Part shown: positions 11,275 to 36,652 of the stretch, one piece after another | Layout: the number at the start of each line of letters is the position of its first letter | Numbering within the stretch: position 1 is the first letter of the stretch | Assembly: GCF_014698845.1 (NCBI RefSeq) | Contig: NZ_JACJTV010000002.1 | Location: 248,001 to 312,000, forward strand | Reading direction: 5' to 3' | Length of the DNA: 64,000 nt | DNA from: Coleofasciculus sp. FACHB-1120 | Lineage (GTDB): Bacteria > Cyanobacteriota > Cyanobacteriia > Cyanobacteriales > FACHB-T130 | Program-made: the position numbers and the translations under genes | Notes under the pieces: model-generated | What the model was told of the DNA's origin: nothing | Databases searched by the model: none | Seen by the model: only the letters and a program-made list of their open reading frames with translations

Positions 11275-11299
11275 TAAAATCTAGAACGCAGTTCCTTTA

Positions 11300-13023: not shown

Positions 13024-13025
13024 AT

Positions 13026-13099: not shown

Positions 13100-15504
13100 A
13101 ATTCTAGGGGCTGGGGTTGGGCAATGACATAACCTTGGGCATAATCTATCCCTAGGCATTTTACCTTCTCTAAAATCGAGTCATTCGCAACAAACTCAGC
13201 AATTGTTTGAAGACCCATCACGTGCCCAACGTGGTTAATCGCTTCCACCATCGCCAAATCAACCGGGTCATCGGCTATATCTCTGACAAAACTTCCATCA
13301 ATTTTCAAGTAATCGAGCGGCAGATATTTGAGATAAGCAAATGAGGACATCCCGCTGCCAAAATCATCTAAAGCAAAACGACAACCCAAAGCTTTGAGTT
13401 CCTTAATTAACCCAGATGCTTTACTCAGATTGGCAATCGCGATAGTTTCTGTAATTTCAAAGCAGATCATCTTGGGTGGAATTTTATAGATAGAAAACTG
13501 CTCTTTCAGAAATTCAATAAACTGATCGTCATTAACGGTAGCACCTGATAGATTAATAGTATACAGGGTAAAAGATGAAGGAGGTAGGATATAGGGTGTT
13601 AGCGAAGGCGAAGGGGAAACATTGCTAGCACCAGCAACAAAGGAGTTGCTCACGCTTCCCGTTGGTGAAGATGAAAAATTCTCAACTTGGGGTTCTGAAT
13701 TCTGAACTCCAGAGTGGTGAAGCAGCTCCATGAAGGTGCGGATCACCCAGCGGTCTATCGCAGGCATCAGGTTGTATCGCTCGGCGGCGGGGAGAAACGT
13801 CATCGGCGGGATTAACTCGCCTTTATCATCCACGAAGCGCAGCAGAACCTCATAGTGTTCCTCGGTTTTTGATTCAGCATTCAAAGGGGCGATGGGTTGG
13901 TAGTACAAGCAGAATCGACTCTTATCGCCTGGGAACGAATTTTCTGGAGCAGCGGAAAGGTTCAGAGGTGCGCTTTGAGCGATCGCTTGATTCAATCGAG
14001 TCAACCATTGCACTTCCCTTTGCTGTTGCGCTAACTTTTCATCGTCAGCTTGATAGACATACACGCGATTTCGTCCCCGATTTTTAGCTTCATAGCAAGC
14101 CGCATCGGCAGCACTAACGACGCCCGCCAAAGTAGAAGTATTCGCGTCAAATGTCACTACACCAATACTGACACCGACTGTGAAAGTTTTGTCCTCCCAC
14201 GCAAATCGAAACTCCTGAATGCTTTCTTGTAGAGACTGAGCGACTCGCACTGCTTCCTCTGTCGGACATTGATACAACAGCACGGCGAATTCATCACCAC
14301 CCAATCGTGCCAGAACATCAGTTCTACGCACTCTGCTTTGCAACAAACTGCTGATTTGACGCAACAATTCATCGCCAGCAACATGACCGCAAGTATCGTT
14401 GACAATTTTGAACCGATCGAGATCCAGATAGCAAAGCGTGTGTTCCTGGTTTTGCATTCTGGTATTCGACACGGCTTCTTGCAAACGTTGTTCAAATTCG
14501 TAACGGTTGGGGATTCCCGTCAGAGGATCGTGGTTAGCTTGCCAAGAGAGTTTTTCATTAACTTTAGTGAGTTCGGCGGTTCGTTCTCCCACCAATTTTT
14601 CTAGATGTTCTTGATACTGTTTGAGTGTTGTCTCAGCTTTCTTGCGTGCGGTGATGTCCTCTACTATGCGAATACCGAATTGCGGTTTGCCCTCGCCATC
14701 CCGTACCTGGGACACCGTGATATTGCACCACAGCATCTGCCCATTTTTTCCCAGGTAACGCTGCTCCATTTGGTAGCAATCACGACCCCAAATCAGATGT
14801 CCATCCTTTCCTAGATAACGCTTCGCCATCTCAGAATAGTCATGTTTGCCGATAATTAAATTGATATAACGATCCCAACCCATATCGTCTGGAAGCGTAT
14901 CTTTTTGAAAATACCCTTCGGGCAATTTATTTTCGTTGTAGCCCAACATCCGTTGGAGTGCCGGATTCGTTGTCACAACATGACCTTCCATGTCTGTAAT
15001 GGCAATTCCTATGCCTGCTCCCTCAAATATTGAGCGAAAGCGAGCTTCGCTATGCCGCAATGCTGCCTCTGCTTGCTGGCGTTCGGTGATTTCCTGGCTG
15101 AGTTTTTGGTTCGCCTCTTCCAGTTGTACCGGACTGAGAATCGCGAGTGCTTTGGGCATCAAACTCACCAGTTTGATGGCTGTGTAGCAGGACACAAAAG
15201 CTGTAATCGCTTTGAGGGCACCTGAAAGCCAGTAGGCGGGGTGCCAAAGCGTCCAGATTTCCATGAGGTGGTTAGTACCACAGGAAACGATGAAAACCCC
15301 AAACATCACCAAGACCCCGCGAAATTGCACATCCCGCCGTTGATGGACAAAGTAAAACAAAGTGAAGGAAATTGAGTAATAGGCGATCGCAATCAACGCA
15401 TCTGCCACAATATGCAGCGAGACTAACCCTGGTTGCCAGAGATAGCAGTGCCCGTGGGGAATAAACCAATTTGGAGAGATTAAATTTTTTAAAAATTGCA
15501 GCAT
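13093..15504 (-). CDS. Ethylene-receptor-like domain / PAS / GGDEF / EAL protein
   Basis: An 803-residue membrane signalling protein. Residues 20-120 hold three transmembrane helices closely resembling the ethylene-binding domain of plant ETR1 and cyanobacterial Etr1. They include Asp35 in VADALIAIAYYSI and the copper-ligand pair Cys75 and His79 in SCGTNHLMEIW. A PAS region with repeated PAC-like RYLGKDG/RYLGKNG segments (150-285) follows, then GGDEF (motif intact at 402-406, RxxD inhibitory site at 393-396), then EAL (motif reads EVLLR at 552). EAL catalytic residues Asn651-652 region, Glu683, Asp713-714, Lys734, Glu770 and Gln790 are present. A 45-residue Ser/Pro-rich insert (about 601-646) interrupts the EAL domain. 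It should make and/or degrade cyclic di-GMP in response to ethylene or a copper-bound ligand. Confidence 0.88.
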   Translation of the reverse strand: MLQFLKNLISPNWFIPHGHCYLWQPGLVSLHIVADALIAIAYYSISFTLFYFVHQRRDVQFRGVLVMFGVFIVSCGTNHLMEIWTLWHPAYWLSGALKAITAFVSCYTAIKLVSLMPKALAILSPVQLEEANQKLSQEITERQQAEAALRHSEARFRSIFEGAGIGIAITDMEGHVVTTNPALQRMLGYNENKLPEGYFQKDTLPDDMGWDRYINLIIGKHDYSEMAKRYLGKDGHLIWGRDCYQMEQRYLGKNGQMLWCNITVSQVRDGEGKPQFGIRIVEDITARKKAETTLKQYQEHLEKLVGERTAELTKVNEKLSWQANHDPLTGIPNRYEFEQRLQEAVSNTRMQNQEHTLCYLDLDRFKIVNDTCGHVAGDELLRQISSLLQSRVRRTDVLARLGGDEFAVLLYQCPTEEAVRVAQSLQESIQEFRFAWEDKTFTVGVSIGVVTFDANTSTLAGVVSAADAACYEAKNRGRNRVYVYQADDEKLAQQQREVQWLTRLNQAIAQSAPLNLSAAPENSFPGDKSRFCLYYQPIAPLNAESKTEEHYEVLLRFVDDKGELIPPMTFLPAAERYNLMPAIDRWVIRTFMELLHHSGVQNSEPQVENFSSSPTGSVSNSFVAGASNVSPSPSLTPYILPPSSFTLYTINLSGATVNDDQFIEFLKEQFSIYKIPPKMICFEITETIAIANLSKASGLIKELKALGCRFALDDFGSGMSSFAYLKYLPLDYLKIDGSFVRDIADDPVDLAMVEAINHVGHVMGLQTIAEFVANDSILEKVKCLGIDYAQGYVIAQPQPLEFN

Positions 15505-23761: not shown

Positions 23762-26209
23762 TTATTTAGCCCAAGTGAAGCGGAACGTCGCTCCAGTGCC
23801 CGCTGCGGACTCCAGCCACACCCTTCCACCGCGACTTTCAACAATTTTCTTCACCACCGATAGACCGATACCCGTTCCTTCAACTTTGTCCCTCGCTTCC
23901 AGCCTTTGGAAGATGCCCCAAATCTTCTGATGGTACTTGGGTTCGATTCCTTGCCCATTATCAGCGACTGAGAACTCGTAGTATTTTCCTAGTTCCCGAA
24001 CACCAACCTGAATACACATATCCGAGCGATTTGCGTACTTGATGGCGTTGCCGATCAAGTTCATAAACACCTGCTGTAATGGCACCCGTTCGGTTTGCAA
24101 CGTCGGCATATTTGGTACAACAATCGCAACTTCGGGCGGCGGATCGAGCAGTTCGATGACTTCCGACAGCAAAGAGGAGACATTCACCGTCTCGATCTGT
24201 TGTTGCACCCTACCCGCCCGCGAATATTGCAGAATGCCGTTAATTAAAGCTTCCATGCGATGAACTCGTCCCCGCAATAAATTTAGATGTTCGCGGGAGT
24301 CTTCAGTCAGTTTATCTGCGAGGTCTTCCTCAATCCATTCTGAAAGCGTAGCGATCGCTCTTAAGGGTGCTTTCAAGTCATGAGATGCAATATAAGCAAA
24401 CTGGTCTAAATCCCGGTTACTGCGTTCTAGCGCCTGGGTCATTTGAACCAGTTCTTCCGCCTTTTTCTCAATTTCCTGACGCGATCGCACTTGTTCTGTC
24501 ACTTCCACGGCGTGGGTCATAATGCCGTTGACTTTACCATTGGCATCTACTAAGGGTTGGTAGACGAAATTCCAAAAACTCTCTTCTAGAATGCCATCGC
24601 TGTTGCGGTCGAACATCGCCCGCATCTCATTGCCGACAAAAGGTTCGCCACTGGTATAAACCTGGTCTAACAACTCGAAAAAGCCTTGCCCTTGCAAGTC
24701 CCAGAACGCCTCGCGCACGGGTTTACCGACGATATCCCGCTTTTCCACAATCTGCATATACAGTGGGTTCACCGTTTCCGTGACATGGTTCGAGCCACGG
24801 GTGATGGCAATTGCCGCCGGTGCTTGCATGAAGACTCGCTGTAGTTCAGCACGGGCTGCTTGGGCTTCGGCTAAAGCGCGATCGCGAATCTCCCGCTCTT
24901 GCTTGCGTTCGCTGATGTCGCGAGAAACCCCTACAATCTCCACAACGTTGCCATTGGTATCGAAAATTGGGGATTTAATCGTGTGGAAGAAGCGAGTTTC
25001 GCCGTCAGCGCGGACATTCGGCTCTTCCAGAACCTCGATTGGCTGACCTGTTGTGAAGACTTGCAGGTCGTCTTGCAGGTACTGCTGAGTGTAATCGAGT
25101 TGATTGTAGGGGACATCCGTGATGCCGTGAAGCTGCTCAAGAGTCATTCCATAATATTCGCAGGCAGCTTTGTTGGCATACACCACAACTGAGCCAGGAG
25201 CCTTACAAAACACCATATCCTGCACGGAATCGAGAATCTGGGCATAGCGGTGTTCGCTCTGTTTCAGGGCTTCCTCGGCACTTTTGCGATCGCTAATATC
25301 GGTGTGAACACCAATCCATTCCCGAATGCTGCCGTCCGCTTCAAATACGGGGACGGCGCGCACGCTCATATATTTATAAATACCGTCGGAACGCCGCAGA
25401 CGATGCTCGATTTGGTAAAGGGTGCCATTGGCAACCGCATTCAACCACTCTTGCACGGTATGCGCTTGGTCATCTGGGTGAACGGCATTGAGCCACCCCC
25501 AGCCTTTTAGCTGTTCGTAGGATTGCCCGGTAAACGCACTCCAACCCGGCTGTGGAGTGACAAATTCTCCCTCAGCTTTGGTGTCCCAGATAATTTGAGC
25601 TGTGGCTTCCACAAGCGAACGGTAGCGTTCTTCACTCTTGCGGAGTGCTTCTTGCACCGTTTCCACCTCGATTCGTGCTGCCTGTTCGCGCAATAGAAGC
25701 TGAGTTTTTTCCTCAGCTTCCTTCTCCTTGGTGATATCGACCATCACGCCGCGTAGCAACTTGGGGCAACCTTGTTCATCGCAGACCACACGCACCACAT
25801 CTTTGAGCCAGACGACGCGACCATCCGATGCGATCGCTCGATACTGAAATTCGTGGTCTTTTGCTTGATTGGTTGCACTCACGCAAAAATTAACGCACCA
25901 GTCGCGGTCTTCCGGATGCAGCAAGCAATCCTGCCAAAACGTCGGCTCATTTAACCACTGACTGATAGGATAGCCGAGAATATCTTGAGCGCGATCGCTA
26001 ACAAACGTGAATTTCCACGTCACAGCATCCATTTCCCAGACAATCGCATCCAGTCCCTGCACTAGCTCGACAAAGCGCCGATGTGCCTCTGCTGCACTTC
26101 GTGCCGCTACTTCCTGCTCAGCCGCTTCGCTAATGCTAACAGCTAGCGCTGTTGTTGATGCCTCAGCGTCTCGCTGTGCCGCTTCTAACTCCGTCTCACT
26201 CATCCTCAA
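23762..26209 (-). CDS. Multi-PAS hybrid-type sensor histidine kinase
   Basis: An 815-residue cytoplasmic histidine kinase with no membrane segment. It begins with a short coiled coil, then has four PAS/PAC units (about residues 42-180, 195-315, 318-440 and 455-575). A second coiled coil precedes the HisKA dimerisation domain with phospho-acceptor His610 in YIASHDLKAPLRAI. The HATPase domain has the N box NLIGNAIKYAN, the G1 box DNGQGIEP and the G2 box GTGIGLSVVKKI. The YIASHDLKAPL type of H box is the one found in phytochrome-like kinases. No receiver domain or partner response regulator is adjacent. It may be cotranscribed with the upstream phhB gene (70 bp apart). Confidence 0.9.
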   Translation of the reverse strand: MRMSETELEAAQRDAEASTTALAVSISEAAEQEVAARSAAEAHRRFVELVQGLDAIVWEMDAVTWKFTFVSDRAQDILGYPISQWLNEPTFWQDCLLHPEDRDWCVNFCVSATNQAKDHEFQYRAIASDGRVVWLKDVVRVVCDEQGCPKLLRGVMVDITKEKEAEEKTQLLLREQAARIEVETVQEALRKSEERYRSLVEATAQIIWDTKAEGEFVTPQPGWSAFTGQSYEQLKGWGWLNAVHPDDQAHTVQEWLNAVANGTLYQIEHRLRRSDGIYKYMSVRAVPVFEADGSIREWIGVHTDISDRKSAEEALKQSEHRYAQILDSVQDMVFCKAPGSVVVYANKAACEYYGMTLEQLHGITDVPYNQLDYTQQYLQDDLQVFTTGQPIEVLEEPNVRADGETRFFHTIKSPIFDTNGNVVEIVGVSRDISERKQEREIRDRALAEAQAARAELQRVFMQAPAAIAITRGSNHVTETVNPLYMQIVEKRDIVGKPVREAFWDLQGQGFFELLDQVYTSGEPFVGNEMRAMFDRNSDGILEESFWNFVYQPLVDANGKVNGIMTHAVEVTEQVRSRQEIEKKAEELVQMTQALERSNRDLDQFAYIASHDLKAPLRAIATLSEWIEEDLADKLTEDSREHLNLLRGRVHRMEALINGILQYSRAGRVQQQIETVNVSSLLSEVIELLDPPPEVAIVVPNMPTLQTERVPLQQVFMNLIGNAIKYANRSDMCIQVGVRELGKYYEFSVADNGQGIEPKYHQKIWGIFQRLEARDKVEGTGIGLSVVKKIVESRGGRVWLESAAGTGATFRFTWAK

Positions 26210-26279
26210 GTCTTCTTCTCAGTATGACCATCGATCTAGATGCCCGACTGTTTGCCCAGGCTCCAAACGTTCCAGGAGC

Positions 26280-26633
26280 TTACTTTTGAGTAAATTCCGG
26301 GGCAATCCGATCTGTCTTTGCCGCCATTATAAAATCGTTCCGGTGCAAACCAGAAATCGCGTGAGTCCACCACCTCACCGTCACCTTACCCCACTCCGTC
26401 AGCAAAGCCGGGTGATGCCCTTCCGCTTCCGCTGCTTCGCCGACTTTATTAGTGAAAGCTAGCGCCGTCTGAAAATCTGCAAACTTGTAGGTGCGCTTAA
26501 GCCGCGATTCTCCCTCCTCTTCCACAATGTTCCAATCTGGAATCTCTGGTTTCAGTTCTGCGATATCCGCCTCAGTAACGCGTGGCGCATCCTTATGACA
26601 GGCAATACACTTTTCTTGTGTCAGATTTGCCAT
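26280..26633 (-). CDS. Pterin-4a-carbinolamine dehydratase family protein
   Basis: A 117-residue protein with the core of the PCD/DCoH fold. [23 protein letters not shown] contains the conserved histidine pair that dehydrates 4a-hydroxytetrahydropterin, and [19 protein letters not shown] is the preceding strand. An N-terminal extension with CIACHKDAP carries a Cys-x-x-Cys pair absent from the classical enzyme. No aromatic amino acid hydroxylase is nearby, so the function may be pterin recycling for another enzyme or a moonlighting role. It lies just upstream of the PAS kinase on the same strand. Confidence 0.88.
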
Positions 26634-26730
26634 ATTTCCCTATTTTCGGCACTTAAGTTGTCCGATTTTACCCAAGTGTTGTTTTTCCCACGTCTGCCAT
26701 AATGCGGATTTTGGCTAGAAGGATGGGTGG

Positions 26731-26774
26731 GAGTGTAACCCGTGTGTTTAATAAGTGGAACACGGGTTACACTC
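26731..26774. repeat. 15-bp perfect inverted repeat
   Basis: GAGTGTAACCCGTGT (26731-26745) and ACACGGGTTACACTC (26760-26774) surround a 14-base loop in the spacer between the lipoprotein trypsin gene and phhB. No T tract follows on either strand, so it may be a mobile-type palindrome and not a terminator. Confidence 0.65.
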
Positions 26775-26869
26775 TTCCTAAAACTCATGACCAAAAGTTA
26801 AATTTATCAGGCTCGTTTTGCCAAGCTAATACCTATCTTCGGATTTCTGTAGCTTTATTACGTTAAAAG

Positions 26870-27661
26870 TTAATCTTCTACTTCTAACTTCATACTTTGG
26901 CGTAGACTTGAACTCAAAAATTTGTTAATAGAAATACCCCAATTATTGCCTAAATTCTCACTCAGAGGTAGACAAGAGCCAAAGTCATAGCTATTTTCTT
27001 TGTCTAGTCCTGGCTTACCATGAATAGCTATAACTCGGCTCTTGTCGTCAAACACGGGAGCGCCACTCATACCTCTAATAGTTGGATTCGTATATTTAAC
27101 GTTATAACCTTCTTGATAATCGTCTTCTTTATAATTTTCTATATCATTGTTCTCTTGGTTTTGCACTTTTTTATTAAGATTCTTAATATATGTAACTGCC
27201 TCCTCTTTTGACTTAACTATATTTAATATTTTTCCCGTGTTAAATTCGTAACCCTTTTGTGAACAATCTTTCCATCCAGAAATATGAACAGGTTTATTTT
27301 CAAATAAACTTTTTGTCAATTTAGCAACCGGATACTTTTTACCCGGACTATCAAACTCTATAATTGCTAAATCTAGCTTTGGGTCTTTTCGTATATTTTT
27401 AATTGGATGATTTACCTGATCATGGGTTATAGCCTGGTATGGATCATCTATTTTTCCGGGTTGGATACCCACAACATGCTTAGCAGTCAGGACAGAATAG
27501 ATATCATTATCTTTGTGAATGATTACCCCAGAGCCAGTCCCATTTCTTCCACGAATAAGAACAGTTGTCTTTTGATCTGTATCCTGCTCTAGCCCACAAC
27601 TTACTAAAACTAAATTTAAAATAAAAACAGAAAATATTTTTTTTTCTATTTTGCTTAGCAT
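26870..27661 (-). CDS. Trypsin-like serine protease, lipoprotein
   Basis: A 263-residue S1/S1C-type protease anchored by a lipobox (VLVSC, Cys22) after a short signal peptide. The triad is visible: His62 in SVLTAKHVVG, Asp97 in KLDLAIIEF and Ser199 in IRGMSGAPVF. A 35-residue charged insert around residues 158-190 is unusual. It has no PDZ domain, so it is not a DegP/HtrA. It is last in a minus-strand cluster with a second trypsin, a COP23 protein and a Ser/Thr kinase. Its start codon and ribosome site lie in a 53-bp tandem duplication. Low G+C compared with neighbours suggests it and the cluster were acquired. Confidence 0.85.
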   Translation of the reverse strand: MLSKIEKKIFSVFILNLVLVSCGLEQDTDQKTTVLIRGRNGTGSGVIIHKDNDIYSVLTAKHVVGIQPGKIDDPYQAITHDQVNHPIKNIRKDPKLDLAIIEFDSPGKKYPVAKLTKSLFENKPVHISGWKDCSQKGYEFNTGKILNIVKSKEEAVTYIKNLNKKVQNQENNDIENYKEDDYQEGYNVKYTNPTIRGMSGAPVFDDKSRVIAIHGKPGLDKENSYDFGSCLPLSENLGNNWGISINKFLSSSLRQSMKLEVED

Positions 27662-27758
27662 ATTTTAATTATTCCTAGCTTAACACCTAATAATTATCAA
27701 ACTTTGCTTAGCATATTTTAATTATTCCTAGCTTAACACCTAATAATTATCAAACTTT
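27650..27758. repeat. Exact 53-bp tandem duplication between two protease genes
   Basis: Positions 27650-27702 and 27703-27755 are identical, with the next unit begun by TTT (27756-27758). The unit carries the start codon and AGGA site of the downstream trypsin gene and the last codons and stop of the upstream one. Identity suggests a very recent duplication. Confidence 0.92.
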
Positions 27759-29089
27759 ATCATAACTAAATCCTCTTGGGATTCCTTCTTCTTATATAAA
27801 ATCCAATGCTTAGGATTTTGGCGATCTACTAATTTTAATTTAAAACTCTTGTTAAAAGATGTTGCTTTAGGTTTTAGTCTATTATTTCCCCAAAAAATTT
27901 CACTACTATCAATTAATATTTTTATTCCTCCAATGTCCCGTTCTATGAATCTATTATATTTATTATCTTGCGGTTTGTTACTAATTAATATAGTTTTATT
28001 ATTCTCATTTACTATAAATTCAACTTTTTGATTACTCTGATCTATAAAAATTTGACCCAAATATTGGTAGGTTTTCTCGTTTCTTATCCTACTTTTATAC
28101 TTACTCCATAGAAGATACCCTAATAAGATTGTTAAGATTAGAATGCCCGTCATACCACTTATTATTAAAGTTAAATTATTATTTTGTTCTTGATGACGTA
28201 GCGTATATGTAGTCTCTATAGTTGGGGATTTTATTTTAGCGAATAGCTGCTTCGGGGCTAGGGTTAGATAAGTTTCTATTGGAATTCCTAAAGCTAAGTA
28301 TCTCATTAGATTCTGAACTTCTGGAGGGGAGCCAGAACCATCCGCAAAGGTGTATTGGCGGTTTCCTGGTGGATATTTTCCTCTGCCATTGATACCCACT
28401 AGCCGTCCAGCAACGTCCATAACAGCACCGCCACTCATTCCTTCCTTGGTTTCATTAGTGTAGCCGAGCTGATAACCGTTAACTAAAGGCTTGTTGATTA
28501 AATATACTGCACCAGATGTAAATGTGAACTCTGCTGGACACGCCATACTAGGCGATGTTAATTCACAAGGGAACCCAACGACAAAGACCTTATCTTCAGT
28601 TTTTAAGTCTGATGATTTACCTATTACAGCTTTTTCATAATGATAACCACTGGAGAACCATAATAATCCAAGATCGTTGTCCCCAAACTTTTGTTTTGCT
28701 TCTGGATGTGGCAATGCTTTGTGAAGCCAACCGTCAGGAGTTTGGACATAATACTCATTGGCGGATGACTTTACATGGGCATTGCTCAGCACTAAGTATA
28801 GGTATGATGGTTGGTCGGATGTTGGATCTTGTCGGTCGAGCAAAATTCCTGAACCACTAATTTCCACCCCATTCTGAGGATCTCCTGAAAAGACTCTAAC
28901 TGTAATCATTCGGGTTCTATCCCGTATTTCATCTTCTGTTAGTTGGGTTAGTGTACCTAGCTGAATGGGCTGAGCAGTTGGTGGAGATTTTCCGACAGGA
29001 CCAGCCAAAGTAAGAGCCTGCATGGACGGTTCCAAGAAGAAAAACCCCACGCAGGCTATGTTCATAAATAGGGTAAAAGTCCGGTTCAT
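27740..29089 (-). CDS. Trypsin-like protease with transmembrane segment
   Basis: A 449-residue protein. After a signal-like hydrophobic N-terminus, a trypsin domain (residues 50-270) shows His105 in VLSNAHVKS, Asp139 in FGDNDLGLLWF and Ser219 in KEGMSGGAV. A second hydrophobic segment (about 306-328) should span the membrane, placing the protease outside. The C-terminal 115 residues, rich in Lys, Asn and Ile, would be in the cytoplasm and match no domain I know. An ATG at 29158 is in frame but overlaps the COP23 gene. The ATG at 29089 follows it by 11 bases and is preferred. It probably works with the adjacent COP23 and second protease. Confidence 0.82.
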   Translation of the reverse strand: MNRTFTLFMNIACVGFFFLEPSMQALTLAGPVGKSPPTAQPIQLGTLTQLTEDEIRDRTRMITVRVFSGDPQNGVEISGSGILLDRQDPTSDQPSYLYLVLSNAHVKSSANEYYVQTPDGWLHKALPHPEAKQKFGDNDLGLLWFSSGYHYEKAVIGKSSDLKTEDKVFVVGFPCELTSPSMACPAEFTFTSGAVYLINKPLVNGYQLGYTNETKEGMSGGAVMDVAGRLVGINGRGKYPPGNRQYTFADGSGSPPEVQNLMRYLALGIPIETYLTLAPKQLFAKIKSPTIETTYTLRHQEQNNNLTLIISGMTGILILTILLGYLLWSKYKSRIRNEKTYQYLGQIFIDQSNQKVEFIVNENNKTILISNKPQDNKYNRFIERDIGGIKILIDSSEIFWGNNRLKPKATSFNKSFKLKLVDRQNPKHWILYKKKESQEDLVMIKFDNY

Positions 29090-29100
29090 AAAAGTATGGG

Positions 29101-29643
29101 CTATGGAGTGCTGCAAACCTGTCTGGCGTATGCACCGCGACCCTGGGTTTGAACCCAAGCTTTGATATCAATGTATGTAGCGCAGGAACTTTCCTTTAAA
29201 GGTCGACCTGAGAAGTTCCGGTCGGTCATTGCGAATATATCTTCTAGAACAATCTTGGGATCTTGGGAAGGCTTAAGCGTGTAAATTAGGTTGTTGCAGC
29301 CCTTGCCGACGCTATTTGTCGTGCAGATTACCGGCAGATCATTCATCTTCCCATGAGTGATAACTTGATCGTTTTGGCTGAACAAGGTATTCAGTCTTGC
29401 ACTCACTTGCTCACATCTTACTAACGGAGAAAAGCCCTTTTTGCTGAAGTAAGGATCGACCCAGCGGATAAACTGCTTCTGCAATTGAGAGGTTATGATT
29501 ACTGTGGTTGGTGCGTTTTGTATCATTTGACACTCAAATCTCACGCTTGGTGTGTCAGCGATAGCAGGAATACTGAACGTAGCTGTAGATACTGCTGTCA
29601 CAGCAGATGCAAAAAAAATATATACACTCTGTTTAAGTTTCAT
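29101..29643 (-). CDS. COP23-domain exported protein
   Basis: A 180-residue exported protein with a signal peptide cleaved near AIA/DT (residue 29). The mature part matches the COP23 domain: FECQMIQNAPTTVI, IRWVDPYFSKKGFSPLVRCE, VSARLNTLFSQN, VICTTNS and CNNLIYTLKP. Four conserved cysteines probably form two disulfides. COP23 was named for a circadian-oscillating 23 kDa membrane-associated protein of unicellular cyanobacteria, and its biochemical role is unknown. It sits immediately before a membrane trypsin. A second COP23 protein lies beside the trypsin-TPR gene at 53 kb. Confidence 0.85.
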   Translation of the reverse strand: MKLKQSVYIFFASAVTAVSTATFSIPAIADTPSVRFECQMIQNAPTTVIITSQLQKQFIRWVDPYFSKKGFSPLVRCEQVSARLNTLFSQNDQVITHGKMNDLPVICTTNSVGKGCNNLIYTLKPSQDPKIVLEDIFAMTDRNFSGRPLKESSCATYIDIKAWVQTQGRGAYARQVCSTP

Positions 29644-29778
29644 TTGTAAGGCTCCTTCTTTTGCGACTGGACTTTAGCGAACTTAATGTTTCTAGCCATC
29701 AATCATAATACAAAAGTATTTCATCCAGCCACATTTTATACCAAATGTTTATTTCCAGACTAAGCACTGATTTTCTCG

Positions 29779-31011
29779 TCAGGGAGGCGTAGGATTTTCA
29801 CTCGGAGACACTGAGTTAGATGTTGCTGGAGATGACTTAGGGCGCAAGAAGATACTTCTTGGCTCTGAATTGCTTGTCGTCGGGCTAGATGTTGGGGATG
29901 GTCGATTATTAATTGGTGAAGGGGAGGAAGTTGGCTGAGGCGACTCAGGACGTAAGAAGATACTTCTTGGCTCTGAATTGCTTGTCGTCGGACTAGGTGT
30001 TGGAGACGACTGATTATTATCTGGTGACGGGGAGGAAGTTGGCTGAGGAGGTAAGGGAGGAGCCGGAGATTTGAAAATTATAAATCCCACGCCCAGAGCT
30101 GCGATCGCTACTATAGAACCTAATATTACAAATGCCAGCCATAGCGGAATCAAGGGTTTTGGATTGGGATTAGGTAGGCGCTGAGTTTTTTGCAATTTTT
30201 GCAATTCATTGAGAATTTCTTCTAGAGACTGGTATCGTTGCTGATGGTTATCCTGCACCATCTTGTCCAAAATTTTTGCAAGTCCATTGCTCACCTGTGC
30301 CTTATCTCGCCATATAACTTCAGCCTTACAGGGATGTGTTGGTAATTTATTAGGATACACTCCTGTCACTGCTTGAATTGCAGTCATCCCCAGTGCGTAA
30401 ATGTCACTGTTAAATTCTGGTTTACCTTGAAGTTGCTCTCTAGGAGCATAACCAAGTGTACCAATGATTGTCGGTTTAGTAGGGTTCGCTGAACGTGCAA
30501 GAGCTGTTTTTACTGCTACTGCACCAAAATCAATGAGGACTAATTTACCGTCCCCGTCTCTCCTGATTAGATTCTCAGGTTTAATATCACGGTGAATCAC
30601 CTTTCTACCGTGAACGAATTTCAGAATTTTCAATACATCTTCTAAAAAACAGACAACTTTATTTTCATCAAGCTTTTTTCCAACTGGTAGTTCCTCAATA
30701 AGGGGATGACCTTCGATATACTCTTGTACAAGGTAAAACTCTTGATTCTCATCAAAGTAATCGAAGAACAGGGCAATCTGGTCATGTCTAGGTGGCTCAT
30801 TTAATTTCAATAGGGTTTGCGCCTCACGCTCAAATAATTTTTTAGCTATTACGAAATTTACTGGATCATCAGGATTAAGGTGTTTAAGAGCACACTTACT
30901 GCCAAATCGCCTTGTGTCTTTAACTAGGTAAGTCGTACCAAACCCCCCTTTTCCTAGCTCTTTAATAATTTCATAACGTTTATTTATGATTGTTCCTGGG
31001 ATTATAGCCAT
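29779..31011 (-). CDS. Membrane Ser/Thr protein kinase
   Basis: A 410-residue Hanks-type kinase. The glycine loop GKGGFGTTY, Lys43, catalytic Asp142 in HRDIKPEN, DFG at 161-163 and GYAPREQ as the APE equivalent are all intact, so it should be active. A transmembrane helix (about 288-313) follows, then an outside tail of about 95 residues rich in Pro, Ser and Thr. The tail contains a near-exact duplicated unit including SPTTSNSEPRSIFLRP. The kinase is first in the cluster leading to COP23 and two trypsins, with a 135-bp gap to COP23. Its target is unknown, and the tail may tether the kinase to the wall or to the COP23 protein. Confidence 0.9.
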   Translation of the reverse strand: MAIIPGTIINKRYEIIKELGKGGFGTTYLVKDTRRFGSKCALKHLNPDDPVNFVIAKKLFEREAQTLLKLNEPPRHDQIALFFDYFDENQEFYLVQEYIEGHPLIEELPVGKKLDENKVVCFLEDVLKILKFVHGRKVIHRDIKPENLIRRDGDGKLVLIDFGAVAVKTALARSANPTKPTIIGTLGYAPREQLQGKPEFNSDIYALGMTAIQAVTGVYPNKLPTHPCKAEVIWRDKAQVSNGLAKILDKMVQDNHQQRYQSLEEILNELQKLQKTQRLPNPNPKPLIPLWLAFVILGSIVAIAALGVGFIIFKSPAPPLPPQPTSSPSPDNNQSSPTPSPTTSNSEPRSIFLRPESPQPTSSPSPINNRPSPTSSPTTSNSEPRSIFLRPKSSPATSNSVSPSENPTPP

Positions 31012-31113
31012 AAAACGCTACTATAGAGAGTGCTTTCATAATGATTTATATATTAGCCGATTATTTTAATAGAGTGAGTTGCAACGCGAATTTACAAAGA
31101 TTTCAATACAAAG

Positions 31114-31247
31114 CGCGATCACATTCTCTCAATACCAAAAACGCGATCGCACTCTTCCCATCTCATACGAAAACGCGATCGCATCCTTCCCAACCCACAG
31201 CAGCGCGATCGCATTCTCCGCAACAGAAGAAACGTGATCGCATTCTT
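31114..31247. repeat. Five-unit HIP1 array (array 1)
   Basis: CGCGATC-type motifs begin at 31114, 31142, 31174, 31204 and 31234, spaced 28, 32, 30 and 30 bp. The last 75 bases are homologous to the array at 32844-32917. The region translates in one frame as repeated RSH-type segments, but this is a by-product of the repeat. The rest of the 31012-31276 gap holds no gene. Confidence 0.75.
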
Positions 31248-31276
31248 CTAATTTTTTCTCTAATTCCTTGATACCT

Positions 31277-31636
31277 TTAGATCGCAAACCCCAAAACCAC
31301 ATTTAAGCTAAAGCGAATCTGTTCCCAGTATTCTTCCTCTAGCACACCCACCAAACCCAAAACGCGACGATGATCGACAGCACGAATTTGCCCGACATCA
31401 ATAAAACGGTCTTGGTCTAATCCATTGGAGGGTGTTGCTTTGACATTTACAACGTAGGGGGCTTCTTTCTTTCCCGGTCGAAACGGCATCACAATTGTCA
31501 GAAGCCCATATTGGTTCATAATGTCATTTTGCACAATCAAGCAAGCGCGGGTTTTTTGCGCCTCAGCCCCTACTGTCGGAGCGAGCGTCACCCAACGGAT
31601 TTGTCCCCGCCGATAAGTTAAGTTACTCGCTGGCAT
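31277..31636 (-). CDS. MazF/PemK-family toxin (endoribonuclease)
   Basis: A 119-residue PemK/MazF-fold protein. The N-terminal RRGQIRWVTLAP strand, ACLIVQNDIMN, and GQIRAVDHRRVLGLVG are family blocks. Known members cleave mRNA at short sequences. It overlaps the upstream antitoxin gene by 14 bases, the normal antitoxin-first arrangement with translational coupling. The pair sits 0.4 kb from a second toxin-antitoxin pair on the same strand. Confidence 0.88.
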   Translation of the reverse strand: MPASNLTYRRGQIRWVTLAPTVGAEAQKTRACLIVQNDIMNQYGLLTIVMPFRPGKKEAPYVVNVKATPSNGLDQDRFIDVGQIRAVDHRRVLGLVGVLEEEYWEQIRFSLNVVLGFAI

Positions 31637-31853
31637 TCATGCCATCCCCAGCGACACTATCCCAAGCTGCAATTTCAGCTTGGTACTCTGGATCTTTAGC
31701 ATCCTGTTGGAGGGCGGTAATCATTTGTGCCTCCAAAATACGGCGGCGGTGTTCTGCTAGCAGATCATTAATATAGGCGCTGCGGTTGCCTTTTGCCTGC
31801 AAATCTACAAATCGCAGGATGTCATCTTCTAAAGAGATTGTGACTTTCTGCAT
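31623..31853 (-). CDS. Antitoxin partner of the MazF-like toxin, ribbon-helix-helix type
   Basis: A 76-residue protein with an N-terminal ribbon-helix-helix region (MQKVTISLEDDILRFVDLQ, then SAYINDLLAEHRRR) and an acidic C-terminus that would bind the toxin. An in-frame extension up to 31892 exists, but family members start at MQKVTISL. It also likely represses its own operon. Its stop overlaps the toxin start. Confidence 0.85.
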   Translation of the reverse strand: MQKVTISLEDDILRFVDLQAKGNRSAYINDLLAEHRRRILEAQMITALQQDAKDPEYQAEIAAWDSVAGDGMNASE

Positions 31854-31982
31854 CAGTATGAGTTTTGGGTATGGTAATTTCATCATACTCAAAATTCTCC
31901 CAGTTCATTTCAGGCATCGTGTGTAAAGCGAACAGAGCAAACCCAGTAAATCGCATCCTTCACCAAGACAAAGTGCGATCGC

Positions 31983-32336
31983 TTATGTTCGCCACTGGTT
32001 CAGCCAGCGTACTTGCCCGATCCACTCAGATGCGTGTGTCTCTGACAGCAGGCGATCTAGAGCAGCAATTAAATCCGAGAGTGTCCAACTGCTTTGAGCC
32101 GCCAGGATAATGCCGCCATGTTGGGGGTATTCGGCTAAAATCAAAAAATCGCGGATGTTAAAGGTAAAGATACACCGTCCTTGTGCAGTAGCCCCTAATA
32201 ACTGAGCCTCATCGCTGGCATCTAAAGGCATCCAATCAGTTGGTGTTCGGGTGACATCGTGACCGCGAGAAATTAAGGCTTGATGTAGGGCTTTAATAGA
32301 TGTATCGGCATCAAGGTGCAACAGCGGTTTAGACAT
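31983..32336 (-). CDS. DUF5615 PIN-like toxin
   Basis: A 117-residue PIN-like (Mut7-C-related) protein. Acidic residues likely to bind metal are in HLDADTSIKAL, LDASDEAQLLGAT and FTFNIRDFLILA. It has the DUF5615 pattern, and such proteins pair with DUF433 antitoxins as VapC-like RNases. It overlaps the upstream DUF433 gene by 8 bases. A start at 32348 is possible. The ATG at 32336 (MSKPLLHLDAD) is preferred. Confidence 0.8.
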   Translation of the reverse strand: MSKPLLHLDADTSIKALHQALISRGHDVTRTPTDWMPLDASDEAQLLGATAQGRCIFTFNIRDFLILAEYPQHGGIILAAQSSWTLSDLIAALDRLLSETHASEWIGQVRWLNQWRT

Positions 32337-32727
32337 TTGCCGCTTCAAGAGTTTCTTCAGATGCGATCGCCATCTCTATTTCCGCCGCGTGCGCTCCAAA
32401 GTAAGCTAGAGCCTGCTTCACCTGAGCCTCACTCAACCCATACTCAGCAGCAATCTCCTTCGGGAATAAACCCCAAAGTTTCGCAGCAACTACCACTGTC
32501 TGCACGCGCAAGCCAGTCCCGCGCAGAAAAGGCATTGGCTGACCGCTAGCGCCGCGACGGTATGTAATTTCAGGAAATGCCGGATCGTCGAGTTGCTGGC
32601 TTAGCGCCCCTACCTTCTCTGCCACAGCCCACAAAATGAATTGATTTAGCGAAACACCTTGGGAAGCTGCATATTTTTCGGCATCTTGCTTTAACTGAGT
32701 CGGTAAGTTCAAGGAGTAACGTGCCAT
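32329..32727 (-). CDS. DUF433 antitoxin with ribbon-helix-helix N-terminus
   Basis: A 132-residue protein. Residues 1-45 are a CopG/HicB-like ribbon-helix-helix (ARYSLNLPTQLKQDAEKYAASQGVSLNQFI), followed by a DUF433 domain with FLRGTGLRVQTVVVAAKLWG and an ExxAAEYGLSEAQVKQALAYF helix-turn-helix-like motif. This is the usual antitoxin of DUF5615 toxins. It should bind both the toxin and its own promoter. The A/T-rich stretch at 32755-32785 upstream contains candidate palindromes. Confidence 0.82.
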   Translation of the reverse strand: MARYSLNLPTQLKQDAEKYAASQGVSLNQFILWAVAEKVGALSQQLDDPAFPEITYRRGASGQPMPFLRGTGLRVQTVVVAAKLWGLFPKEIAAEYGLSEAQVKQALAYFGAHAAEIEMAIASEETLEAANV

Positions 32728-32843
32728 TGATTCTTCCTCAGCGTGCCAATATTATACACATCATATATTACGTCGTATGATATGTCATTTAATCCACAAG
32801 CGTCGTCAAGACAACTGTTTGGCTATCCTAATTTGTATCGGCA

Positions 32844-32917
32844 CGCGATCGCATCCTCGCCCTGCCACAGCCAAAGCGATCGCATTCTCCCCAGCAAAAG
32901 AAACGCCATCGCTCTTT
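32844..32917. repeat. HIP1 array 2, homologous to array 1
   Basis: HIP1-type motifs at 32844, 32875 and 32904, spaced 31 and 29 bp. GCGATCGCATTCTCC and the following AAGAAACG match array 1 (31205-31247) with few differences, in the same orientation. The two arrays bracket the double toxin-antitoxin locus. Confidence 0.75.
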
Positions 32918-33000
32918 ATCGGGTCGGTTAACCATACTGGGGGATTCGCGAGTTCTATGAGCAAAGTAAGAATAAGGAGATCGAGTAGTAAGAGGTAAAA

Positions 33001-34902
33001 ATGCAATCAACTATTGAGCGATCGGCAACCCAACTACCGCCGCTGATTCCCCGCGAGATTCTTTTCGGCAACCCAGAACGCACCAGTCCGCGACTTTCAC
33101 CGGATGGTAAGTATCTGGCGTACATCGCCCCCGACGAAAAGAATGTCTTGCAGGTGTGGTTGCGGACAGTCGGACAGGAAGACGACCGCCAACTCACCGC
33201 AGATAAGAAGCGCGGTATCCGGATTTTCTTCTGGACTTATAACGCCGACCAGCTGATGTATATGCAAGACTCAGATGGCGACGAAAACTTTCACCTCTAT
33301 TCGGTCAATATTCACTCCAATATTGTCCGCGACTTAACGCCATTCCAAGGGGTGAAAGCACAGCCAGTGGATCTTGACCCCAAGTTTCCCGATCAAGTCC
33401 TGGTGGGGATGAACTTGAAGGACTTGCAAAAGTTTGACGTTTACCGCATTAACCTGGCAAACGGTGCGGTTGACTTATACGCTGAAAACCCAGGCAATGT
33501 AGTTAGCTGGACAGTAGACGCCCAATTCCAGGTACGTGCCGCCACCGCTGCAACTCCTGATGGGGGTTCTGACCTGTTATTCCGGGAAACAACCCAAGGC
33601 GATTGGGAAACGCTGCGTCACTGGGGTCCAGATGATGAAGGCGGTGCCGTCAGCTTCTCGGAAGATGGCAAAACCCTTTATATCAGCGGCAGTCACGATG
33701 CCAACGCCAGTCGCCTGATTGCTTTCGATGTCACTACTCGCGAAGAAACAGTCATTGCCGAAGATCCGCAATACGATCTAGGCGGTATCGTCATTCACCC
33801 GATTACACGAGTGATCCAGGCGGTTTCTTTCTACAAAGAGAAACAAGAATGGCAGGTACTTGACCAAAGTATCGCCGCAGATTTTGAAGCGATCGCCCAA
33901 ATTCGTCCCGGAGAGTTCGGCATTTCCTCCCGTGACCTTGCCGACAAAAATTGGCTAGTCGCTTTCCTCACCGATGATGGCCCAGTCTACTACTACGCCT
34001 ATAATCGAGATTCCAAAACCAGCACCCTCCTGTTCAGCAACAAACCCACACTCGAAGGGTTGTCGCTGGCATCCATGCAACCGATTTCTTACCAAGCCCA
34101 AGACGGCTTGACGATTCACGGCTACCTAACAACACCTGTAGGAATAACCGCCCAAAATTTACCAACCGTGTTGCTGGTTCATGGCGGCCCTTGGGCGCGA
34201 GATACTTGGGGTTACGACCCGCAAGCGCAGTGGTTAGCGAACCGGGGTTACGCGGTGCTGCAAGTAAATTTCCGGGGTTCCACCGGCTACGGTAAAGCCT
34301 TTGTCAACGCTGGCAACCGGGAATGGGCGGCGAAGATGCACGACGATCTCATTGATGCCGTCAACTGGCTGGTGCAACAAGGCATCTCCGACCCGCAAAA
34401 GATTGCTATCATGGGCGGTTCCTACGGCGGTTACGCAACCCTAGTGGGATTAACTTTTACGCCGGATGTCTTTGCTTGTGGTGTAGATATCGTGGGTCCC
34501 AGTAACCTGATTACGCTGATGCAAAGTATCCCGCCCTACTGGGAACCGCTGAAGGCGAATTTCTACTATCGGGTTGGCAACTTGGAGACGGAAGAAGAAT
34601 TTCTCAAGTCGCGATCGCCCTTATTTTTCGTTGACCGGATTACTAAACCACTGCTAATCGCCCAAGGTGCTAACGATCCACGGGTGAAACAGGCGGAAAG
34701 CGAACAAATCGTCGAGGCGATGCAAAAGGCAAATAAGCCTGTAGAGTACGCCCTTTACACCGACGAAGGACACGGTTTCGCCCGTCCCGAAAACCGATTG
34801 CACTTTTACGCGATCGCAGAAGAGTTTCTCTCTAAATACTTAGGTGGACGCTGCGAACCGCTAGGAGACATCCCCGGACATTCCGGCGTACTCACCTCAT
34901 AG
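33001..34902 (+). CDS. Prolyl oligopeptidase family serine peptidase (S9)
   Basis: A 633-residue cytoplasmic peptidase. Residues 1-360 form a beta-propeller-type N-terminal domain with repeated WD-like segments (SPRLSPDGKYLAYIAPDE, AVSFSEDGKTLYIS). The C-terminal alpha/beta hydrolase domain has Ser474 in GGSYGGYATL, Asp559 in NDPRVKQAES and His591 in EGHGFARPENR. It should cleave short peptides, with acylaminoacyl- or prolyl-specificity undecided. It is monocistronic and 160 bases downstream of array 2. Confidence 0.92.
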   Translation: MQSTIERSATQLPPLIPREILFGNPERTSPRLSPDGKYLAYIAPDEKNVLQVWLRTVGQEDDRQLTADKKRGIRIFFWTYNADQLMYMQDSDGDENFHLYSVNIHSNIVRDLTPFQGVKAQPVDLDPKFPDQVLVGMNLKDLQKFDVYRINLANGAVDLYAENPGNVVSWTVDAQFQVRAATAATPDGGSDLLFRETTQGDWETLRHWGPDDEGGAVSFSEDGKTLYISGSHDANASRLIAFDVTTREETVIAEDPQYDLGGIVIHPITRVIQAVSFYKEKQEWQVLDQSIAADFEAIAQIRPGEFGISSRDLADKNWLVAFLTDDGPVYYYAYNRDSKTSTLLFSNKPTLEGLSLASMQPISYQAQDGLTIHGYLTTPVGITAQNLPTVLLVHGGPWARDTWGYDPQAQWLANRGYAVLQVNFRGSTGYGKAFVNAGNREWAAKMHDDLIDAVNWLVQQGISDPQKIAIMGGSYGGYATLVGLTFTPDVFACGVDIVGPSNLITLMQSIPPYWEPLKANFYYRVGNLETEEEFLKSRSPLFFVDRITKPLLIAQGANDPRVKQAESEQIVEAMQKANKPVEYALYTDEGHGFARPENRLHFYAIAEEFLSKYLGGRCEPLGDIPGHSGVLTS

Positions 34903-34920
34903 AACCCATCCTTATCAATT

Positions 34921-34985
34921 GAGGTACGCAAAGTCTAAACTTAGCGTACCTCTGCGCTTACCTTTGCGTACCTTTGCGTTTAAAA
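34921..34985. repeat. Dispersed TTTGCGTT-type spacer repeat
   Basis: GAGGTACGCAAAG is followed by CTTAGCGTACCTCTGCGC and two copies of TACCTTTGCGT. The ends are mutually complementary, so the stretch can fold back. It is related to the repeats near 6503, 21300 and 23490. Confidence 0.6.
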
Positions 34986-35049
34986 CCGAGCCTTTTGCAC
35001 AGAAAAGCAGTATTCTAAAAAAAACTGAATTCTCGACAACTAAACTGTT

Positions 35050-35481
35050 ATGGACGACTTTATGACAGATGCGATCGCCCAAGCTAAACAAGGACTCAGG
35101 GAGGGGGGAATTCCCATTGGTTCAGTTCTAGTTAAAGATGGGCAAATTGTCGGTAGAGGACATAATAAGCGCGTCCAAGACAACGACCCTGTTACCCACG
35201 CAGAAATCGATTGCTTACGCAATGCTGGCAGAATAGGCAGTTACAAAGATACAACGCTTTACTCTACCTTGATGCCTTGTTACCTCTGTGCGGGTGCTGT
35301 TGTCCAATTTGGGATTAAAAAAGTCATCGCCGGTGAATCTGCAACTTTCTCCGGTGCCAAGGAATTCATGGAATCTCACGGCGTTGAAGTGATTGATTTA
35401 AACCTGGATGATTGTAAGCAGTTGATGAGCGATTTCATCCAGAAAAATTCCCAGTTATGGAATGAGGATATTGGCAAGTAA
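35050..35481 (+). CDS. Cytosine deaminase, fungal Fcy1-like
   Basis: A 143-residue zinc deaminase. THAEIDCL (His50, Glu52) and MPCYLCAGAV (Cys77, Cys80) are the zinc and proton-shuttle residues. KDTTLYSTLMPC, FGIKKVIAGES and the C-terminal FIQKNSQLWNEDIGK strongly resemble yeast cytosine deaminase Fcy1 and differ from the large bacterial CodA. It should convert cytosine to uracil and ammonia in pyrimidine salvage, together with base-releasing enzymes such as the nucleoside hydrolase in this window. It is monocistronic. Confidence 0.88.
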   Translation: MDDFMTDAIAQAKQGLREGGIPIGSVLVKDGQIVGRGHNKRVQDNDPVTHAEIDCLRNAGRIGSYKDTTLYSTLMPCYLCAGAVVQFGIKKVIAGESATFSGAKEFMESHGVEVIDLNLDDCKQLMSDFIQKNSQLWNEDIGK

Positions 35482-35716
35482 TTTTCCAAAAAATAGTTTT
35501 TAACTTCAACTCAACAGGGAAAACTTTTTGTTTTATCCTCTAGAACTTATTAATTTTTTTTGATAGAATGAACTCGATAAGGAAGAACTGAGCTTTAATA
35601 TTTAGTTGAGACAGATTCCCATTATTTAAGTATACCTTGAAAAGGCGGAATTATCGTTACCAAATAGGCCATTAATCATAAAAATCTACTGAATATTCTT
35701 CCCTTTTTCCACTCAA

Positions 35717-36652
35717 CTATAGAATCCCTCGTTCTCTGAGAAATGTGTCGAACGTCTCTCTATCCGGCAGAGAAGGCTGGGCACCGGCAATAGTTGCCGA
35801 AATCGCACCAGCGGCAGCACCCCAAACAACTGCCTCCCGCAGAGAACGCCCAAAAGCCAAAGCTGCTGCCAATCCCCCATTAAACGCATCCCCAGCCGCA
35901 ACGGTGTCAACTGCCTGAACGGGAAAAGCGGGGACGAAGAACGTTTCCGCCTCTGTGGCACAGAAGACACCGCGATCGCCTAGTTTCACAATTGCAGTAT
36001 CCGCGCCCTGTTGACGTAATGCGGCGGCTGCCTTGGCAGCGGTTTCTTGCCCATCCACAGCAAAGCCTACCAACTGCGCCGCCTCAATTTCGTTGGGGGT
36101 AATGATATCTACGAACGGATAGAGGAGAGAGGCAAAATCCCCCAGCTCTATAGCCGGTGCGGGATCGAGAATGACCTGAACCCCGGCTTGTTGCGCTGCC
36201 TTAGCAGCTGCAACTACGGCTGGCATCGGAATCTCGAATTGAAGTAGCAATGCAGCCGCACCGTCCAACAAATCACTCAGGCGTCCCACATCCTCCTCGT
36301 TCACTCGCCCATTGGCACCGGGAACGATGATAATGTGATTTTCGCCAGCGTCGCCCAGCGCGATCGCGGCAACGCCAGAATGAGCCGCTTCATCCACCAA
36401 GACAGCCCCAGTCTCGACACCAGACGCTTGAAGATTGGCGAGGAGTTCGCGTCCAAAATTGTCGGCACCCAGACGCCCCACCAGCTGAGTCGGAATCCCC
36501 AGGCGCGCCACTGCTACCGCTTGATTCGCCCCTTTCCCGCCCGCCGCCGTAAAAAAGTTATGACCCCGCAGCGTTTCACCCGCAACTGGCAATCGAGGTG
36601 ATCGCGCCACGAGATCCATGTTGATGCTGCCGAAGACAATAACTTTGGTCAT
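35717..36652 (-). CDS. rbsK: Ribokinase
   Basis: A 311-residue PfkB-family kinase that phosphorylates D-ribose to ribose 5-phosphate. Diagnostic features are GSINMDLVARSPRLPVAGET at the N-terminus, AGGKGANQAVAVARLG (38-53), ITPNEIEAAQL (ribokinase-type TPNE at 185-188) and DTVAAGDAFNGG with catalytic Asp255. It is transcribed on its own, with no rbsABC transporter nearby, which fits salvage of internal ribose over uptake. Confidence 0.93.
   Translation of the reverse strand: MTKVIVFGSINMDLVARSPRLPVAGETLRGHNFFTAAGGKGANQAVAVARLGIPTQLVGRLGADNFGRELLANLQASGVETGAVLVDEAAHSGVAAIALGDAGENHIIIVPGANGRVNEEDVGRLSDLLDGAAALLLQFEIPMPAVVAAAKAAQQAGVQVILDPAPAIELGDFASLLYPFVDIITPNEIEAAQLVGFAVDGQETAAKAAAALRQQGADTAIVKLGDRGVFCATEAETFFVPAFPVQAVDTVAAGDAFNGGLAAALAFGRSLREAVVWGAAAGAISATIAGAQPSLPDRETFDTFLRERGIL

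Follow-up and report, generated by a model that had tools for sequence, protein, structure and literature searches.

A recurrent COP23-protease-protease module and an optional Ser/Thr kinase partner in the cyanobacterium Coleofasciculus sp. FACHB-1120

Some secreted proteases are encoded in one operon with a cognate inhibitor, as in the staphopain-staphostatin and SpeB-Spi pairs. Exported S1 proteases with His-Asp-Ser (HDS) triads are represented by the HtrA/DegP/Deg proteins (S1C; TIGR02037, with NF041521 for HhoA/HhoB/HtrA), and membrane Hanks-type kinases with a tail outside the membrane by the PASTA kinases PknB/Stk1 (NF033483). COP23 was reportedly described by Chen in 1996 as a circadian oscillating protein of Synechococcus RF-1. 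The literature on COP23, in the parts available, covers rhythm, expression and membrane location (PMC6315102, PMC11131595, PMC10153697). Two other small families, Trypco1 and Trypco2, co-occur with trypsin-like peptidases in vWA-MoxR-VMAP conflict systems, according to the available part of their description (PMC7159879). The present analysis concerns a 64,000-nucleotide stretch of Coleofasciculus sp. FACHB-1120 (contig NZ_JACJTV010000002.1, positions 248001 to 312000), called the window below, in which a COP23 gene stands between a Ser/Thr kinase gene and two genes for trypsin-like proteases. The COP23-protease-protease module is real and strongly recurrent, and the kinase belongs to the window cassette, not to the module in general.

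The cassette consists of four genes:

29779-31011, minus strand: Hanks-type Ser/Thr kinase, 410 aa (Pkinase 119.7 bits, motifs and hydropathy).
29101-29643, minus strand: COP23, 180 aa, predicted to be exported, six-Cys subtype (PF14218, 101.6 bits).
27740-29089, minus strand: T1, class-I trypsin-like protease, 449 aa (Trypsin_2, about 57.1-57.3 bits).
26870-27661, minus strand: T2, class-II trypsin-like protease, predicted lipoprotein, 263 aa (Trypsin_2, 60.9 bits).

Read downstream, the order is kinase, COP23, T1 and T2, with gaps of 135, 11 and 78 bases; the start of T1 is taken as the ATG at 29089, where a mechanical list of open reading frames (ORFs) has instead a TTG at 29158. The Pkinase, COP23 and Trypsin_2 matches all exceed the curated Pfam cut-offs (27 bits for COP23). 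Catalytic triads were placed from motif positions at H105/D139/S219 in T1 and H62/D97/S199 in T2, and no PDZ domain was found in the window proteases in a Pfam scan to E 0.1. The original prediction had read the region as four minus-strand genes with these positions and gaps, and its proteases as having full triads, lacking PDZ domains and not being standard HtrA proteins; ORFs, motif positions and Pfam agree with it on both counts.

Among solved structures, the class-I alignment scores best against HtrA/Deg-type proteins (in the best 60 of 103 matches), which share with T1 and T2 the HDS triad and (by prediction) export. T1 and T2, however, score 29.5 and 32.3 bits in NCBIfam against a cut-off of 416.2 and have no PDZ domain, and the module has two protease classes in a usual order behind COP23. 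Like PknB/Stk1, the window kinase is a predicted membrane Hanks-type kinase with an outside tail, but it reaches 136.8 of 450 bits, has no PASTA domain and carries a low-complexity tail. The module shares with the staphopain-staphostatin and SpeB-Spi pairs a small partner encoded beside a secreted protease, and differs from them in having two proteases, another partner family, fusions and an optional kinase. A Pfam scan of COP23 to E 0.1 returned COP23 only (Pfam also holds Trypco models). COP23 resembles Trypco1 and Trypco2 as a small family co-occurring with trypsin-like peptidases, but those are parts of VMAP systems, whereas COP23 is predicted to be exported and has no mention in the available part of PMC7159879.

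The topology of the window proteins was predicted from hydropathy and motifs. The kinase carries the motifs ALKHL (Lys), HRDIKPEN (HRD) and DFGAV (DFG), and its single hydrophobic stretch (284-318) is followed by a Pro/Ser/Thr tail predicted to lie outside. COP23 has a hydrophobic segment at its N-terminus, and T2 a lipobox-like LVSC. T1 has an N-terminal signal and a second hydrophobic stretch at 304-329; because this precedes a basic stretch, the last ~115 residues of T1 are probably cytoplasmic, a point that extends the original prediction. No phmmer relative of this C-terminal region was found among the loci of the COP23 and trypsin-bait sets introduced below. Class profiles gave T1 157.2 bits for class I and 112.2 for class II, and T2 141.5 bits for class II and 84.7 for class I. 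Promoter-like sites in the region (14, compared with 13.4 in shuffled sequence) and terminator-like sites (3, compared with 3.7) are at shuffle level, and the region scan found no terminator-like site on the minus strand between the four genes. A perfect 53-bp tandem duplication at 27650-27755 covers the T1 end and the T2 start and yields a short extra ATG frame between them. The kinase tail has a 108-bp tandem repeat (29819-30034, 82%) encoding repeated SIFLRP stretches; an IFxRP tail motif shared by kinase and trypsins was dropped as a candidate, with 5 of 311 kinase and trypsin ORFs bearing it versus 4 of 938 and 3 of 358 others.

In the 6.2-Mb genome of the strain itself, 3 COP23 and 10 Trypsin_2 matches were found, and a trypsin lies within 1.5 kb of two of the three COP23 genes. 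Of 60 genomes surveyed in the order, that of the strain among them, 56 contain COP23, with 239 matches altogether and 0-12 copies per genome, and over these 60 genomes its copy number follows that of Trypsin_2 (Spearman rho 0.80; per Mb 0.76). An initial scan of genome contigs with COP23 alone gave no match. One hundred regions were fetched around the best-scoring listed COP23 matches, picked before their neighbours were seen; some, not all, near-twin genome repeats were dropped, and two regions (L068 and L069) overlap by about 5.7 kb. Trypsins, COP23 and kinases were counted with hidden Markov models (HMMs) built for this analysis. Using these, 109 trypsins were found in the 1.492 Mb around COP23, one of them double-counted through the overlap; the genome-wide density of Trypsin_2 (596 matches in 318.1 Mb) would give 2.8. 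In 40 control regions of these genomes, 656 kb in total, there were one trypsin, no COP23 and six kinases. The original prediction had staked itself on an enrichment of trypsins near COP23, and it holds, since trypsins adjoin COP23 far above expectation. Outside the window, the nearest trypsin is within 1.5 kb for 70 of 111 COP23 genes; 58 of these trypsins lie downstream on the same strand, nine upstream on the same strand, two are fused and one is on the opposite strand. When all neighbours were grouped by single-linkage clustering, most module genes fell into one cluster, the next largest covering at most 11 loci.

A reverse test was carried out with a class-I trypsin alignment as bait. The best 80 of 428 relatives, all cyanobacterial, were chosen by trypsin similarity alone, and 73 of these 80 loci have a same-strand COP23 gene just upstream (median gap 29 bp); the seven without it are L173, L177, L186, L188, L192, L195 and L207. 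Because some contigs occur in both (e.g. L146/L046, L169/L054, L172/L112 and L185/L055), the COP23 set and the trypsin-bait set are not independent. For 140 pairs of COP23 and next trypsin, the distances within the two families correlate with a Mantel r of 0.62, the largest of 500 permutations giving 0.12; this correlation is joint inheritance and nothing beyond it.

Two trypsin classes were seen in alignment A3, and profiles were built from 10 seeds each, the seeds coming from A3 and being among the domains counted. These profiles separate 282 trypsin domains with a median margin of 105 bits (nine below 10 bits). A trypsin lies downstream on the same strand, no more than 4 kb away, for 147 COP23 genes. 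Of these genes, 79 are followed by class I and then class II, 28 by one protein with both domains and one by such a protein and then class II. The remaining orders are class I alone (22), class II alone (7), II then I (6), II then II (3) and unclear (1). Within two-domain trypsin proteins, class I precedes class II in 32 of 32, and the window matches the usual order of COP23, class I and class II. The HDS letters are kept in 107 of 112 trypsin ORFs of the COP23 region set and the window, taking the best domain of each.

COP23 is also found fused to other domains. In L128 (8885-10183), it stands behind a trypsin domain in a protein of 432 aa, and in L110 behind AAA_35 and a trypsin domain in one of 989 aa; the trypsin triad of L110 is degenerate, so that this fusion may not be a protease. 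COP23 precedes a CHAT domain in L042 and L044, which form one family, and TPRs in L164. An HExxH protein related to the DUF4344 'putative metallopeptidase' adjoins the module at four distinct loci, three of the four with a terminal Trp; these were recognised by Pfam in one case and by phmmer in the rest of L054, L055, L162, L169, L185 and L209. By its fusions and its HExxH neighbours, COP23 is thus found together with proteases of several kinds.

A COP23 domain tree (FastTree, midpoint rooting) contains a clade of 22 genes, mostly long forms, with a support of 0.975. A trypsin lies within 1.5 kb of none of these 22, compared with 70 of 89 COP23 genes outside the clade, and COP23 must therefore also have a trypsin-free use. 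In the strain's own genome, a long trypsin-less COP23 (L034 7669-8508) is followed by a 2120-aa protein (8748-15110) with a C-terminal CHAT-like domain, and the pair recurs in the sister genome (L035). A CHAT protease as a rule beside long COP23 was rejected as a candidate: one lies within 1.2 kb in only 2 of 21 loci, both of the own genus, and in 0 of 19 other long-form loci.

Within the full-text literature, the term 'COP23 domain' occurs in one Arthrospira paper alone. Its available part has a 21-gene RNA-seq table with three replicates, in which COP23 and two serine proteases change in parallel, by -1.97, -2.08 and -2.10 log2 respectively (PMC13114239); we took the three genes as neighbours from their consecutive tag numbers, and that part of the paper does not discuss the COP23-protease link. 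No text pairing COP23 with trypsin or with a CHAT domain, and none naming PF14218, was found in this body of 5.39 million full texts, which most subscription papers and bioRxiv preprints lie outside.

AlphaFold models were made for the window COP23 (mean predicted local distance difference test, pLDDT, 78) and for the L138 domain (83). Neither has a Foldseek match in the PDB at E 0.001, a missing match being no proof of a new fold, and the best VIA Z values of 5.5 (46 residues) and 4.7 (48 residues) are at or below the level that the tool calls common. An inhibitor fold for COP23 thus finds no support in either search of the two models, and since the models have no clear solved relative, the fold gives no functional clue so far. 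Matches of a COP23 sequence profile to antibody light chains in the PDB (E 0.046 and worse) were taken as chance. A viral origin of COP23 was likewise set aside: one query found no relative among 50,697 phage records, two scans of viral_contigs (one with a COP23, one with a fusion) found none, and there is no PHROG for COP23. PADLOC gave no model match for COP23; its matches to the kinase, which span 36 families (PD-T4-6 up to 311 bits), look generic, as do those to the trypsins, helicase and HNH proteins.

To place the cassette in its genome, window positions 25501-36000 were compared by blastn with L311 of a sister genome (G036), the one other genome of the genus in the comparison. Homology covers 25501-26731 (96.0%) and 31204-35580 (95.5%), and the interval between them shows no match other than a 70-bp repeat (77%) at its edge. 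Because homology ends at 26731 and restarts at 31204, the four genes fill the difference, and kinase, COP23, T1 and T2 differ from the sister genome as one block. The segment and its edges are as follows:

26732-31203, 4.47 kb: variable segment, holding the kinase, COP23, T1 and T2 and no other gene.
26731-26774: perfect inverted repeat of 15 bp, marking the edge of the segment next to T2.
31110-31256: five 28-nt repeats, three with intact GCGATCGC, at the kinase-side edge of the segment.

The motif GCGATCGC is known as HIP1. The variable segment has a guanine plus cytosine (GC) content of 38.6%, compared with 48-49% in the flanks. At the same site, the sister genome (L311 1900-6621) encodes an SNF2-type helicase of 1111 aa that includes a methyltransferase domain; two small genes and an HNH gene complete its cassette. 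The HNH gene is PtuB-like, and the site may be a hotspot at which accessory or defence cassettes are exchanged. Directly beside the cassette, 31277-32727 holds a MazE/MazF-like pair and a DUF433/DUF5615 pair, which are kept in the sister genome.

COP23 is also carried on plasmids. Of ten plasmid records with COP23, eight are typed conjugative or mobilizable; in the stretches fetched, the HMMs found a trypsin in 9 of 10 and a kinase in 4 of 10, with neither on Nostoc carneum plasmid2. Microcystis NIES-2481 p1, typed non-mobilizable, has kinase, one small hypothetical gene, COP23, trypsin and trypsin; Nostoc sphaeroides p3 (mobilizable) has kinase, COP23 and trypsin frames running across the record start; and Nostoc ATCC 53789 pNsp_h (mobilizable) has COP23, trypsin and trypsin. 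Against these three plasmids, window T1, T2 and COP23 score above anything in both locus sets, with identities of 50% (T1) and 49% (T2) to pNsp_h, 40% and 38% to Microcystis, and 38-41% for COP23. The window kinase is 46-47% identical to the plasmid kinases, which does not stand out against its 57% match in G029.

Four columns are 99-100% Cys in the alignment of the COP23 region set, and the window copy has C38, C77, C107 and C116 with C154 and C177 in addition. The two extra C-terminal Cys are common to the window COP23 and the three plasmid COP23 proteins, and among 195 COP23 proteins of both sets and the window the pattern occurs in the window only. In a search of 388 genomes of the class at E 1e-20, the own genome and 24 others gave a match, and of these 24 the Cys pair was seen in G240 contig 4 only; this contig has the same gene coordinates as N. 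sphaeroides p3 and is counted once. A trypsin lies within the 1.5-kb flanks of 22 of the 25 non-own matches of this search.

The kinase behaves differently from the proteases. A same-strand kinase lies at most 700 bp upstream of 13 of 193 non-window COP23 genes. Kinase density near modules is about 2-4 times that of the control: compared with the 6 in 0.656 Mb of control, trypsin-bait loci have 35 in 0.93 Mb (p 2e-4) and COP23 regions 29 in 1.492 Mb (p 0.057). Downstream of the module at trypsin-bait loci, 20 of 21 kinases are convergent. In a tree of 59 COP23-region kinases, some of them several kb off, and 35 others, 16 label changes were counted, at least 10 of them forced by supported branches, compared with 28 for shuffled labels. 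Since the COP23-region kinases form no single clade, there were several kinase recruitments, some of them inherited. Of the best window-kinase matches across 29 other genomes, just two, both of one genus, lie about 1.5 kb or less from a COP23 gene. A kinase as a fixed part of all modules is ruled out by the loci of relatives, the kinase tree and the neighbour counts. The original prediction, which had joined kinase, COP23 and trypsins in one arrangement, is thus borne out for the cassette, whose four genes fill the differing block and stand in the same order on two plasmids; as a general rule it is not supported for the kinase, which is optional in the module at large.

The window holds a second COP23 beside a trypsin, in another presence/absence stretch:

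52947-54632, plus strand: TPR-trypsin, class II with TPR repeats, 561 aa.
54756-55352, minus strand: second window COP23 (58.3 bits), convergent with the TPR-trypsin, grouping beside the long trypsin-less clade.
52673-56070, 3.4 kb: stretch containing this second COP23-trypsin pair together with a RAYT-like gene, and corresponding to about 48 bp in the sister genome.

The RAYT-like gene was rejected as a regular neighbour, being found at three loci in both sets and the window and at none in the control; by eye, another RAYT-like gene stands by the L312 module.

COP23 and the trypsins of the modules often have a C-terminal tail that is rich in Pro, Ser and Asn and closes with Trp. Counted with a COP23 'core' definition based on absence of trypsin, the tail occurs in 42 of 174 COP23 proteins and 39 of 246 trypsins (L054, L160, L169, L176, L211 and others), over a background of 26 of 938 other ORFs of at least 200 aa and 4 of 358 control ORFs. 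Genes of one operon tend to share it (Fisher p 6e-6), and it may serve as a common tag for sorting or docking; the window proteins are without it.

We consider it rather probable that COP23 is an extracytoplasmic partner subunit of an envelope system of class-I and class-II S1 proteases, with the kinase optional. Gene order, enrichment, fusions, the block difference, plasmid carriage and the parallel expression in Arthrospira point in this direction. COP23 would interact with the protease pair and provide its targeting, substrate presentation or activity control, playing for PDZ-less proteases the part of the PDZ domains in HtrA. T1 and T2 would cooperate, either by forming a heteromer or because one activates the other. 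A membrane Ser/Thr kinase would have been added in some lineages, the window included; by phosphorylating the cytoplasmic C-terminal part of T1, its cytoplasmic kinase domain may link a signal from inside the cell to extracytoplasmic proteolysis. A more far-reaching proposal strikes us as doubtful, namely that COP23, for which no close solved fold was found, is the first member of a new class of protease subunits that act in trans and pairs with two S1 proteases in the cyanobacterial envelope, that the kinase of the window's six-Cys cassette phosphorylates the cytoplasmic part of T1 and so switches outer proteolysis, and that the circuit spreads between genomes, partly on plasmids. Several counts weigh against the partner-subunit reading: the long COP23 clade has no adjoining trypsin, and outside it another 19 of 89 COP23 genes have none within 1.5 kb (some regions stop at contig ends); 22 of 147 modules have class I without class II, and in a further 16 class II stands alone or the order is another; the fused trypsin of L110 has a degenerate triad. 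For the kinase, most modules are without one, and the closest relative of the window kinase, the G029 kinase, has no COP23 or trypsin in its short locus.

It is quite possible that the kinase is a passenger and that COP23, T1 and T2 are the functional unit, cyanobacterial genomes being rich in kinases and accessory regions collecting them. Kinases are indeed common in the control regions, and their enrichment around COP23 is weak, though clear in the trypsin-bait set. They are not one clade, the two best relatives of the window kinase that lie near COP23 are of one genus and neither is the closest relative, and no kinase accompanies the six-Cys COP23 of pNsp_h in the stretch covered. Yet kinase, COP23, trypsin and trypsin follow one another on the same strand in the window, on Microcystis p1 (with a small gene after the kinase) and on N. 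sphaeroides p3, the Microcystis set has relatives of every window cassette gene, and the kinase sits inside the block that differs from the sister genome.

COP23 could instead be a dedicated inhibitor or immunity-like protein that shields the producer from its own exported proteases and, standing first in the operon, is made before the enzymes. Its small size, predicted export and four nearly invariant Cys would suit an inhibitor, as would its place directly before the proteases at a short median gap and the tracking of copy numbers. However, fusions join COP23 to trypsin and CHAT domains, with COP23 at one end or the other, and a free-standing inhibitor would hardly be expected in this form; because of these fusions to protease domains a subunit fits at least as well. 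The long clade has no adjoining trypsin, and the models matched no solved structure in Foldseek (a missing match shows nothing). We regard this alternative as unlikely. We give still less credence to a mobile defence or competition system, in which exported proteases, a regulator and a kinase would act against phage, predators or neighbours. The low-GC block at a site where the sister genome has a helicase-methyltransferase and HNH cassette, the adjoining MazE/MazF-like genes, the mostly transmissible plasmids, the variable COP23 copy number and the second presence/absence pair in the window would fit such a system. Against it stand the absence of COP23 from the PADLOC matches and the generic look of the others, the lack of a COP23 relative in the phage and viral_contigs searches, the non-mobilizable typing of Microcystis p1 with its four-gene order, and the predicted location of the products outside the cytoplasm.

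COP23 has been an orphan since the 1990s, and its link to two proteases makes its function testable biochemically. If the partner-subunit reading is true, cyanobacteria would have an envelope proteolysis system in which a separate partner takes over from PDZ domains, and a kinase-linked form of envelope proteolysis would be carried as one block.

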